This document shows positions 1,176-3,748 of a DNA stretch of 64,000 nt, piece after piece. Source of the stretch: Pseudodesulfovibrio sediminis (GTDB lineage: Bacteria > Desulfobacterota > Desulfovibrionia > Desulfovibrionales > Desulfovibrionaceae); the NCBI RefSeq assembly GCF_020886695.1, contig NZ_AP024485.1, positions 3,601,001 through 3,665,000 of the forward strand. The letters are read 5' to 3'. Position numbers and translations under genes: made by a program. Position 1 is the stretch's first letter. Each line of letters starts with the position of its first letter. The notes beneath the pieces were generated by a model. That model was given only the letters and a program-made list of their open reading frames with translations, did not search any database and was not told where the DNA came from.

Positions 1176-1234
1176 GCTTCACGCATTAAAAAAGGGCGAC
1201 CTCAAAGAGGCCGCCCTTTTTTAATGCGTGAAGC
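1176..1234. terminator. Long palindromic terminator, 59 nt
   Basis: Arms beginning GCTTCACGCATTAAAAAAGG and their complement are separated by a short GACCTC-AAA-GAGGC apex. The pairing runs almost unbroken for about 28 bp, far beyond an ordinary intrinsic terminator. A and T tracts lie inside the stem, so it can terminate transcription in both directions. It lies immediately after the SLOG-like gene. Confidence 0.85.
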
Positions 1235-1527
1235 ACACGGCTTGTGATAGCGGCGCATCTGCACATTTTTCCGGCACCGTCCGATCCTCACGTCGTCGGG
1301 GAGCGAGAGCCGCTGTTGGGTGCCTTTGGCACCCAAGTCGCTCCAATTATTGGAGAGTATGAAAAGGTAGCCAGTGCATATAGTCTTTGAGCCTGTTGCC
1401 TCTTCGGCAAACCACACTCTCGCCGACAGGCGCGACAAAAAGTTTTGGAGAGTCCAGAGAACCTTTTTCAAAAGGTTCTCTGGTCCCGCTGAAGGCGACT
1501 CCCGATAGGGCCGCCGGAGGCACAAAA
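1235..1527. repeat. Hairpin-rich non-coding element, Desulfovibrionaceae-type intergenic repeat
   Basis: This 293-nt stretch between two terminators has no convincing gene but a dense run of inverted repeats: 1316-1336 (9-bp arms, TTT loop), 1341-1355 (CTCCAAT/ATTGGAG), 1396-1410 (TTGCC/GGCAA) and 1454-1483 (perfect 14-bp arms CCAGAGAACCTTTT, 2-nt loop). The block from about 1437 to 1522 (AAAAGTTTTGGAGAG, the 14-bp palindrome, then GCCGCCGGAGGCA) resembles an element I recall repeated between genes in Desulfovibrio genomes. That recollection is unverified, and only one copy lies in this window. A structured RNA cannot be excluded. Confidence 0.5.
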
Positions 1528-1557
1528 AAAAGCGACCTGATGTTTCAGGTCGCTTTT
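1528..1557. terminator. Bidirectional intrinsic terminator
   Basis: AAAAGCGACCTGA and TCAGGTCGCTTTT form a perfect 13-bp stem with a TGTT loop. It lies just past the stop of the minus-strand regulator gene ending at 1561 and has a run of A on its left, which reads as T on the minus strand. Confidence 0.9.
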
Positions 1558-1560
1558 GGA

Positions 1561-3141
1561 TTAGCCTTCCAGCTTGTTTTTCATTCTCTTTTTTGACTGC
1601 GAGTATTTTTTCACGTCGATGTTGTACTTCTTCACCTTGTAGTTGACGATTCGGTACGAGACGCGTAGATCGCGGGCGCTTTGCAGCATGTTGCCGCCGG
1701 TCTTCTTGAGCGAGTCAATGAGCAGCTCCTGCTCGAACTTGGCAACGGCCTCGCCAAAGGAGAGGTTGGTGCCGGTGGCGGAGCTTTCCGCCGACTGGAG
1801 TGTGGGCGGCAGGTGGTAGGTGCGGATAACCTTTTCTTCGCAGAGCAGGACCGCGCGCTCCAGGCAGTTTTTGAGTTCACGCACGTTTCCGGGCCAGTGA
1901 TACATGCTCAGCAGCTCGATGGCGGGCGTGGATATGCGTTTGACTTCCTTGCCGTATTCATCGGTGAAATCACTCAGGAAATGTTCTGCCAGGGGCAGGA
2001 TGTCCTCACGGCGTTCCTTGAGTGGCGGGATGAAGATGGGGAAGACGTTGATTCGATAGTAGAGATCCTCGCGGAACAACCCTTTTTCGAGCAGCTCTTC
2101 GAGCGGCTGATGGGTGGCGCAGATGAGGCGCACGTCAACCGTGATGGTCTGCTCGGAGCCGACTCGCTGGATTTCCTTTTCCTGAATGGCCCGCAGCACC
2201 TTGGCCTGGGCATCCATGGACAGCTCGCCGATTTCATCCAGGAACAGGGTGCCCTGGTCGGCCACCTCGAACAGTCCGCGTTTGGTCTGAAAGGCGCCGG
2301 TAAAGGCTCCCTTCTGGTGACCGAACAGTTCGGACTCGATGAGTTCGGACGGCAGGGCCGCGCAGTTGAGCTTGATGAGCGGTTTGTCGGCTCTGGGGCT
2401 GGAGGAATGAATAGCCTCGGCCAGTAGCTCCTTGCCTGTGCCGGATTCGCCGCGCAACAGGGCGGTTGCCCGGCTGGGCGCCACCTGACCGGACTGCCTG
2501 AGCACCAGACGCATGGCCTTGGATGCGGCCACAAAGTCCTTGGGGGTGGGCGTTTCGGTTCCACCGGACATCAGGCCCTGTGAAAGCAGGTGGTTCTGGG
2601 TGGCCATTTCCTCCTGCAACTGGGCAACGTGGCCTGCGATGATGCCCGCGACCACTTCCAGGAACTGGCGGTGGGCGGCCATGTCGTCGGCAGGGATGAG
2701 CGGAACGTCAACAGAGAGCGCGCCAATGACTTCAATATCGTCAGTGCGCAGGTTGATGACGGGCACGCATATGAATCCAAGCTTCTTGAGTTCGTCTTCG
2801 GACCGACCGAACGCCTTGTTCAGGAACTCGGGATCATCGGAGAGTCGCGTAATGGTGATGGATTCACCGGAGTCGAACACGCGGCCGATGATACCCCGGC
2901 CAGGTGAGTAGGTGACATCATCTGTCTGGGCAGGAGAATAGGTGAGCGAGAGTTTGAGGTTCTCGGTCTTGGGGTCCATGATGACCATGAACGCCCGGAC
3001 ATATCCCATGTCCCTGGCCAGCAGTTTCAGCAGTTCATTCAAAGACTCCTCAAAGGGGGTGTCCTGAGTCAGTGTGTCCTGAACCAGCTTGAGCGTGTTC
3101 AGGTAACTGAGGTCAGAGGTGTCTTGTGTTGTGGTAGACAT
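1561..3141 (-). CDS. Sigma-54-dependent Fis-family transcriptional activator with GAF sensor
   Basis: A 526-residue NifA-type enhancer-binding protein. An N-terminal GAF domain (about residues 20-180) is followed by an AAA+ domain with Walker A GESGTGKE, the sigma-54 contact loop GAFTGA, and Walker B LFLDEIGE. The C-terminus has a Fis-type helix-turn-helix (around GGNMLQSARDLRVS). It should remodel sigma-54 polymerase in response to a ligand or redox state sensed by GAF. The ATG at 3141 has AGAGAAAG upstream; a longer frame reaches 3177 inside iorB, but without a better site. It is the last gene of the iorAB operon, starting 10 bp after the iorB stop. Its target is unknown; I see no -24/-12 promoter upstream of this operon. 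Confidence 0.93.
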   Translation of the reverse strand: MSTTTQDTSDLSYLNTLKLVQDTLTQDTPFEESLNELLKLLARDMGYVRAFMVIMDPKTENLKLSLTYSPAQTDDVTYSPGRGIIGRVFDSGESITITRLSDDPEFLNKAFGRSEDELKKLGFICVPVINLRTDDIEVIGALSVDVPLIPADDMAAHRQFLEVVAGIIAGHVAQLQEEMATQNHLLSQGLMSGGTETPTPKDFVAASKAMRLVLRQSGQVAPSRATALLRGESGTGKELLAEAIHSSSPRADKPLIKLNCAALPSELIESELFGHQKGAFTGAFQTKRGLFEVADQGTLFLDEIGELSMDAQAKVLRAIQEKEIQRVGSEQTITVDVRLICATHQPLEELLEKGLFREDLYYRINVFPIFIPPLKERREDILPLAEHFLSDFTDEYGKEVKRISTPAIELLSMYHWPGNVRELKNCLERAVLLCEEKVIRTYHLPPTLQSAESSATGTNLSFGEAVAKFEQELLIDSLKKTGGNMLQSARDLRVSYRIVNYKVKKYNIDVKKYSQSKKRMKNKLEG

Positions 3142-3151
3142 ATAGCTTTCT

Positions 3152-3748
3152 CTAGGTGTTAAGGGCGTTAACACCAAGCTCCAGGGCTTTGAGGTTTACG
3201 GCCTGAATCTTTGCGGGAAGGTTTACCTTGATGGCTTCTTCCAATGCTTCAGGGCCAAAGGGCAGTTCGCCAGCGGCACAAAGCGCGCCGAGAATGGCGA
3301 TGTTACCGGCCTGTACGGCACCGGCTTCGAGGCCGATGGCCTGACTGGCCATGAAATAGACCTTGTCGGTACATCCGGCCACGGCAGCCTTGATATCTTC
3401 GATGGTCGGGCACTCTTCCTTGCCCATGGCCACGGAGAGCGGGGGCATGAACTCGGTTGAGGAGATGATCAAACCGCCCTTTTTCAAATACGGCAATGCG
3501 CGCATGGTCTCCATTGGCTCGAAACCGACCAGAATGTCAGCTTCGCCATGGCCGAGTTTGGGGGACTTGCAGCCGATAAGCACGGTGGATTCCACCACGC
3601 CGCCACGCTGGGCCATGCCATGAATCTCACCGGAAGTGACATCAAGCCCCTGAGCGAGCACGGTCTTGGCAAGCAGGGTCGTGGCGGTCAGGGTTCCCTG
3701 TCCACCGACACCTGTCAGGAATATACGGATTTTCGGGTTGGCACTCAT
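3152..3748 (-). CDS. iorB: Indolepyruvate:ferredoxin oxidoreductase, beta subunit
   Basis: A 198-residue gamma-type subunit of the 2-oxoacid:ferredoxin oxidoreductase family, recognised by GVGGQGTLTAT near the N-terminus, the EIHGMAQRGG motif, and length. With IorA it oxidatively decarboxylates arylpyruvates made from aromatic amino acids, yielding arylacetyl-CoA and reduced ferredoxin. In the reverse direction it can serve aromatic amino acid synthesis in anaerobes. I chose ATG 3748, which lies 2 nt after the iorA stop and has GAGAGG upstream; a longer in-frame start at 3787 lies inside iorA. Coupled translation with iorA is likely. No signal peptide is present, so it is cytoplasmic. Confidence 0.93.
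   Translation of the reverse strand: MSANPKIRIFLTGVGGQGTLTATTLLAKTVLAQGLDVTSGEIHGMAQRGGVVESTVLIGCKSPKLGHGEADILVGFEPMETMRALPYLKKGGLIISSTEFMPPLSVAMGKEECPTIEDIKAAVAGCTDKVYFMASQAIGLEAGAVQAGNIAILGALCAAGELPFGPEALEEAIKVNLPAKIQAVNLKALELGVNALNT

Follow-up and report, generated by a model that had tools for sequence, protein, structure and literature searches.

The block of hairpins that fills the gap between two converging genes of Pseudodesulfovibrio sediminis (positions 1171-1560, 390 nt; genes 622-1170 on the + strand and 1561-3177 on the - strand) is a mosaic of dispersed palindromic repeats, here called elements A, B and C, set between the terminators of the two genes. With a probability of roughly 0.6, we read these repeats as non-autonomous REP/BIME-like hairpin insertions. 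Four observations, made in the window (the whole 64,000-nucleotide stretch of DNA that was analysed) and in related genomes, carry this reading: A, B and C are all multi-copy; the gene pair has an empty site in relatives; A and C keep a fixed end at gene borders; and A has an antisense fold with covariation. The mosaic make-up and the nature of the left end, which is an extended terminator, go beyond an earlier note on this DNA, as do the strand-specific structure of A, its docking at stop codons and its clustering centred on dnaA2.

Layout of the hairpin block

The features of the block are collected in Table 1, where the boundaries of A, B and C are those set by homology.

Table 1. Features of the hairpin block and of the two genes beside it, in window coordinates.
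Feature	Position	Strand	Basis or remark
Upstream convergent gene, 182 aa	622-1170	+	Without Pfam match; orthologue in 36/36 genus genomes
Intrinsic terminator of gene 622-1170, stem 12 bp beyond T-run	1176-1234	.	Inverted repeat
Element A, left half (model positions 1-56 of 121)	1238-1293	+	Homology
Dispersed element B: hairpin, stem variable, flank GAGAGCCGCTGT conserved	1296-1348	+	Homology
Spacer	1349-1412	.	36 genus genomes searched
Dispersed element C	~1413-1522	+	Homology; 5' edge approximate
Intrinsic terminator of gene 1561-3177: 13-bp stem, T tract	1528-1557	-	Inverted repeat and terminator scan
Convergent gene, sigma-54 activator, Fis-type HTH, GAF-like domain	1561-3177	-	GAF slightly below cut-off

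The earlier note had described a hairpin-dense block, and the hairpins that it named were all located. For the stretch 1235-1560, the + strand folds to -136.6 kcal/mol where its shuffles average -106.4 (sd 5.2; z -5.8), and the - strand to -135.9 kcal/mol (z -5.4); 0/100 shuffles equal it on either strand. The 14-nt arms around a 2-nt loop (1454-1467/1470-1483) and the 13-nt arms of the right-hand terminator (1528-1540/1545-1557) are each 100% complementary. The 59-nt palindrome that it placed at the left exists as an inverted repeat whose 28-nt arms (1176-1203 and 1207-1234) are 96% complementary and enclose a 3-nt loop, but it is not a separate palindrome: it is the terminator of gene 622-1170, its stem running past the A/T tracts and its left arm starting 5 nt past the stop codon of that gene. 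A GC stem followed by a T tract is found in 1528-1557 and, by inspection, in 1176-1234; the terminator scan reported 1528-1557 only, and it is by inspection that 1176-1234 was judged an intrinsic terminator.

Between the terminators, the copy of A lacks its right half and is therefore a remnant, so that the function of A is not to be read from the window alone. The window's C holds, in order, a short 5' hairpin, AAAAAGTTTTGGAGA, a long hairpin (1454-1483) and the tail CCGCCGGAGGCA (1511-1522). Two small frames within the gap appear on the list of open reading frames (1202-1525, - strand; 1387-1596, + strand); a homemade codon-usage gene finder scored no gene there, and no sigma-70-like promoter was found in 1100-1700. 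With no promoter-like site in the block and no relatives of the spacer among the matches listed for the 36 genus genomes, an independent small RNA gene seems unlikely. Matches at the Rfam gathering score numbered 0 in the window and 0 in 13 loci carrying A or C copies; the best rows of the sub-threshold list are miRNA models, and the list resembles long-hairpin noise.

Spread of the elements among genomes

With the whole block as query, matches were obtained in 36/36 Pseudodesulfovibrio genomes, the best among the matches listed being to the core, and in 0/24 genomes from other families of the order. Element C alone (E <= 0.001) occupies 8 distinct places in its own genome and occurs in 63/199 family genomes and 12/44 genera, 17 of the 63 genomes belonging to the genus. 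The core at 1437-1522 had been likened in the earlier note to an element scattered between genes in Desulfovibrio, which would make it a family-wide repeat; sequence searches found further copies in its own genome and in relatives, and the spread of C over genomes and genera makes the description as a family-wide repeat correct.

The A/B region matches 29/36 genus genomes at E <= 1, seven of them by a single match (E 0.027 to 0.92) that is not relied on. A covariance model of full-length A (E <= 0.01) reaches 32/36 genus genomes, with at least 88-89 copies in the richest, copy numbers being lower bounds since scoring stopped at 99 candidates for any one genome. In the order sample (E <= 0.001), the same model finds A in 31/199 genomes: 22 belong to the genus, and the remaining 9 are spread over six further genera of the family. 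Dispersed intergenic palindromes in many copies per genome, as in REPs and BIMEs, are thus found for both A and C. Exact searches of viral contigs with two patterns gave 0 matches, on which ground a phage origin was rejected. As far as titles and the first part of abstracts tell, A, B and C are not described in the papers listed by literature searches.

Empty sites in relatives

The region 3' of the orthologue of gene 622-1170 was compared by eye in 16 relatives, those among 29 fetched loci in which the gene was recognised automatically. Seven of these (G022, G006, G033, G010, G013, G028, G002) have the same convergent neighbour with one short terminator between, three (G034, G025 and G035, closely related to each other) have a terminator, an inverted C, a spacer, a C and a terminator, G007 has a different insert at the site, and the remaining 5/16 have other neighbour genes. 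The convergent gap measures 55 nt in G022, 50 nt in G006 and 73 nt in G010, each with one terminator, and 390 nt in the window's own genome (G000), 355 nt in G034 and 250 nt in G026, where it holds A/B/C or C; in G026, the long C hairpins are absent near their bases, as though deleted. The short single-terminator gaps in near relatives argue that the block was gained, and the window's block and the C pair in G034 and G026 look like gains of differing content.

An empty site in relatives, familiar from MITEs, is therefore present at the block's own gene pair. Moreover, A, B and C are small, non-coding and multi-copy with empty sites, like MITEs (including Correia/NEMIS), from which they differ in that no target-site duplication or parent transposase was found here and in that the two arms of A differ at conserved positions. 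In the comparison of relatives no target-site duplication is shown, the flanks of the site being too diverged. Spacers were not seen travelling with the elements, so no composite unit was observed moving.

Element C at gene borders

The general plan of C is a short hairpin, AAAAAGTTTTGGA, a long hairpin and the tail CCGCCGGAGGCA. Among 95 copies, some from orthologous or overlapping loci, the long hairpin is a clear inverted repeat in 87, with 59 different left arms and 1566/1670 arm positions paired. Mismatches (37 G-T vs 32 A-C) point to no strand preference, and the fold energies of the two strands are -55.2 and -54.6. In 61/95 copies the tail faces the end of the gene nearest to it. Of these 61, 39 have the tail at -8 to 20 nt from the stop codon, and 15 of the remaining 22 have it, by eye, directly past the T-run of a terminator. 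A gene begins on that side in 32/95, within 46 nt of its start in 25 of the 32; in 11, the predicted start lies -3 to 4 nt from the tail, whose GGAGG is positioned as a Shine-Dalgarno sequence. Three loci (L018, L019 and L021) have the tail as GGAGGCA before start codons, at the Shine-Dalgarno position of the next gene. Inverted pairs of C with tails outward are frequent. Elsewhere in the genus, L130 and stretches of G034 and G006 have other intergenic families of palindromes, whose tail (GCCGCCGGAGGCGAAATCATCCGAC or a variant of it) is related.

Structure and strand of element A

Element A, about 123 nt at full length, was studied on an alignment of 70 full copies, and it folds better on the antisense strand in 70/70 (mean -79.7 vs -59.7 kcal/mol on the sense strand). 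In a strand-symmetric alignment, the arms hold 369 A-C mismatches vs 55 G-T on the sense strand, and A-C mismatches there are G-U pairs on the antisense strand; a previous count with G.T over A.C on the sense strand (69 vs 23) had used a structure that omitted conserved mismatch columns, and was reversed and discarded. Depending on the column, U.G wobbles are retained in 45 to 67 of 70 copies on the antisense strand, the only strand on which U.G/G-C exchanges are seen. With the antisense structure mapped onto the sense alignment and its pairs scored in the sense, 19/32 pairs show double changes. Covariance analysis, which the earlier note had proposed, bears out the antisense structure: it scores 0.179, where shuffles give 0.065 and slid versions no more than 0.062, figures that are inflated by related copies. 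The arms pair yet differ at conserved positions.

Identity between copies is 0.776 within a genome (206 pairs), 0.768 at orthologous sites (24) and 0.724 across genomes (2182), and the near-equality of the first two fits spread or homogenisation equally with selection at fixed sites. In the best reading, A is a structurally constrained, strand-specific variant of REP/BIME-like elements.

The same data could describe a cis-acting structural RNA, in which A, transcribed in the antisense direction towards the 3' part of the gene before it, would form a barrier or processing signal against antisense transcription coming from the converging gene, together with an extended bidirectional terminator. 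The better antisense fold, the retained U.G columns, the exchanges confined to one strand and the covariation above both controls all suit this explanation, which we nevertheless consider rather doubtful: the block has no promoter-like site, B folds better on the opposite, sense strand (34/41), and the same strand bias is expected of single-stranded DNA. The strand favoured by B also led us to drop the idea of A and B as a single antisense RNA.

An element of ~55-60 nt with the core TTGTACGGCTCGA lies nested in one arm of A, at a similar place and in either orientation (G006, G000, G002 and G032; L156, L162, L165/L292, L174 and L277), and is apparently a site-specific insertion into A; its matches number 7, two of them at the same locus. 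It occurs also in L190, adjoining a terminator-like hairpin. In the window's own genome, L042:1862-2324 has three A-like copies in tandem with ~173-nt spacing, of a subtype with a TGCGTTGC-like stem.

Placement of element A at gene ends and on the chromosome

A same-strand gene lies upstream of A in 76/83 copies (opposite strand in 4, none in reach in 3), and the distances from its stop codon fall into 42 at -12 to 16 nt, 29 at 56-92 nt and 5 elsewhere; genes were called with the homemade finder, and copies are not independent. The downstream gene is convergent in 58/77, in line with a structural RNA acting against antisense transcription, against which stand the 19/77 where it is not convergent and the direct class, where no terminator lies between gene and A.

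In 42/70 sampled loci the upstream gene family is shared with another sampled locus, one group being a single locus counted twice, one consisting of three near-identical species and one (L168 with L079) apparently joining two different genes. For glutamine synthetase III, represented by 16 of 30 loci, A lies past the stop in nine (G025, G035, G011, G020, G013, G002, G028, G010, G033) and is absent in seven (G008, G012, G000, G022, G006, G018, G027); G034, G032 and G007 also have it there, from other comparisons. At a flavoprotein gene (L225-L254), A is present in G006 only among the loci shown, and also in G000 from the shared-gene comparison, a pattern which argues that its presence is patchy. 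Several species thus share A at one and the same gene end, which speaks for a function in the host rather than for neutral insertion.

A bottom-strand hairpin adjoining a stop codon, fixed in orientation, is also a trait of attC sites, and it is found in A, as are a conserved lower stem and a variable upper, terminal stem. attC sites end in R'' (RYYYAAC) and R' (GTTRRRY) boxes. That A marks gene ends as attC sites mark integron cassettes is extremely unlikely, since the R-box pair occurs in 0/70 copies (first and last 25 nt, either strand) and the integron integrase TIGR02249 scores over cut-off in 0/36 genomes, findings for which A was rejected as a member of this class. Weaker TIGR02249 matches occur in 36/36 genus genomes and likewise in 14/14 control genomes; furthermore, no cassettes were seen, and A copies lie at resident genes, some of them common to several species.

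Each of the 14 genus genomes searched has two dnaA-like genes (in the window's own genome, G000:C1:1226 and 2379928), and the name dnaA2 is used for the one scoring better against Pfam. A replication origin near dnaA2 agrees with both GC skew and gene direction, as read in the window and in the syntenic stretches of relatives; being syntenic, these stretches are not independent evidence. In seven closed genomes, 79/92 of the best-scoring A copies listed are within a quarter genome of dnaA2, a count that leaves aside one listed copy each in G010, G023 and G026, of which two lie inside that distance and one beyond it. Its binomial P, 1e-12, assumes independent copies, which those of the close relatives G025 and G034 are not. 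C shows no such concentration: 37/64 listed copies lie within the same distance (P = 0.26), four more that are listed for G026 and G032 not being counted.

Extended terminators before element A

From stop codon to A, the distance is 41-110 nt at 44/93 places. Of these 44, 34 have a terminator-like repeat with a measurable gapless stem, which runs at least 6 bp past the T-run in 19 of them, against 0/20 A-less orthologous gene ends under the same rule (Fisher P = 1.4e-5). Sorted by protein end, the 34 loci make up 17 groups, 9 of which contain one or more extended stems, and so are not independent. Among gene ends in six syntenic stretches, 1/42 is extended, and it is the window's own. Terminators of this kind would be expected with a structural RNA as well. 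Six loci have stems that are unextended by the rule and long but bulged by eye (L187, L199, L273, L275, L277, L280), five have truly short terminators despite A (L060, L171, L182, L186, L263), and four were left out as unmeasurable (L058, L190, L191, L204). The present measure supersedes an earlier gapless one (20/30 vs 0/12), in which a score threshold was applied to controls only and T-runs in loops were counted, and another (2/23) that likewise counted loop T-runs; fold-based terminator counts were too noisy for the control.

Of the 19 extended stems, 16 have a left arm starting at -2 to 5 nt from the stop codon; the remaining 3 have theirs at 9-12 nt. The sequence of the extended arms varies between loci and, at the glutamine synthetase gene, between species. 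The hairpins at 1176-1234 and 1528-1557 are terminators, like bidirectional intrinsic terminators at large, from which many A loci differ in a stem that exceeds the T-run and spans the spacer from stop codon to hairpin.

Arms lengthened by locus-specific sequence, together with the perfect C stems of many sequences (59 arms), are what a mutational process would give, in which palindromes are made perfect and longer by template switching at hairpins (quasipalindrome correction). As an account of the whole it is unlikely: it leaves unexplained why one conserved sequence recurs at many loci, why the site is empty in relatives, why A-C mismatches are retained in the lower stem of A, and why the extended left arms start so close to the stop codon.

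Mobilisation and comparison with known repeats

REPs and BIMEs of enterobacteria and pseudomonads are short dispersed intergenic palindromes at gene ends, often in inverted pairs, the REPs being hairpins of 20-40 nt with a conserved GTAG foot. A and C resemble them in being dispersed, intergenic, palindromic, often in inverted pairs and at gene ends. They differ in length (~95-125 nt instead of 20-40 nt) and in that no RAYT association was found; furthermore, the tail of C can be positioned as a Shine-Dalgarno sequence, and only one strand of A folds well. ERIC/IRU elements are imperfect intergenic palindromes of ~125 bp in tens of copies, to which A is similar in size and copy number, coming from a different clade; ERIC is not known to dock at stop codons in one orientation.

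Mobilisation of A or C, as REPs, by a transposase of the Y1 (RAYT) type is very unlikely; the earlier note had suggested a search for such a gene. The dispersed intergenic palindromes, the BIME-like inverted C pairs and the one Y1 gene in the window's own genome would agree with such mobilisation. Y1 genes, however, occur in 17/36 genomes only, 0/30 Y1 loci have A or C in their flanks (up to 1.5 kb), and the element-rich G002, G006, G025, G028, G032 and G034 have no Y1 match; the A-rich G013, G018, G019 and G022 do have one. Over the Y1 genes and the integron integrase in 36 genomes, no transposase or recombinase was found tied to the elements.

Proposed mechanism and significance

As non-autonomous REP/BIME-type hairpin elements, A, B and C would be copied in trans, probably via a single-stranded hairpin, by some enzyme. 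Their landing beside stop codons and terminators may reflect recombination guided by the hairpins found at these places, together with a tolerance of such borders for insertion, and they may be retained for the extra bidirectional transcription stops and the insulation that they give to convergent genes. The window's A is a truncated remnant, with B, C and the terminators remaining.

A further reading, which we offer tentatively, would make A a new gene-end class: an antisense hairpin of ~123 nt, docked within a few nt of the stop codon or behind a terminator extended to reach it, concentrated around the presumed origin, kept at the same genes genus-wide by structural selection and forming with the extended terminator a two-hairpin guard unit. 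A would then act on the antisense strand, as RNA or as single-stranded DNA, and guard gene ends against opposing traffic.

If this were true, a dispersed repeat would have become part of the way gene ends are constructed, folding on one strand at a set distance from the stop codon and partnered by a terminator, and it would bear on the insulation of convergent genes and on how REP-like repeats turn functional. If A is only mobile, its strict preference for gene borders and its dnaA2-centred distribution would still require some recombinase.
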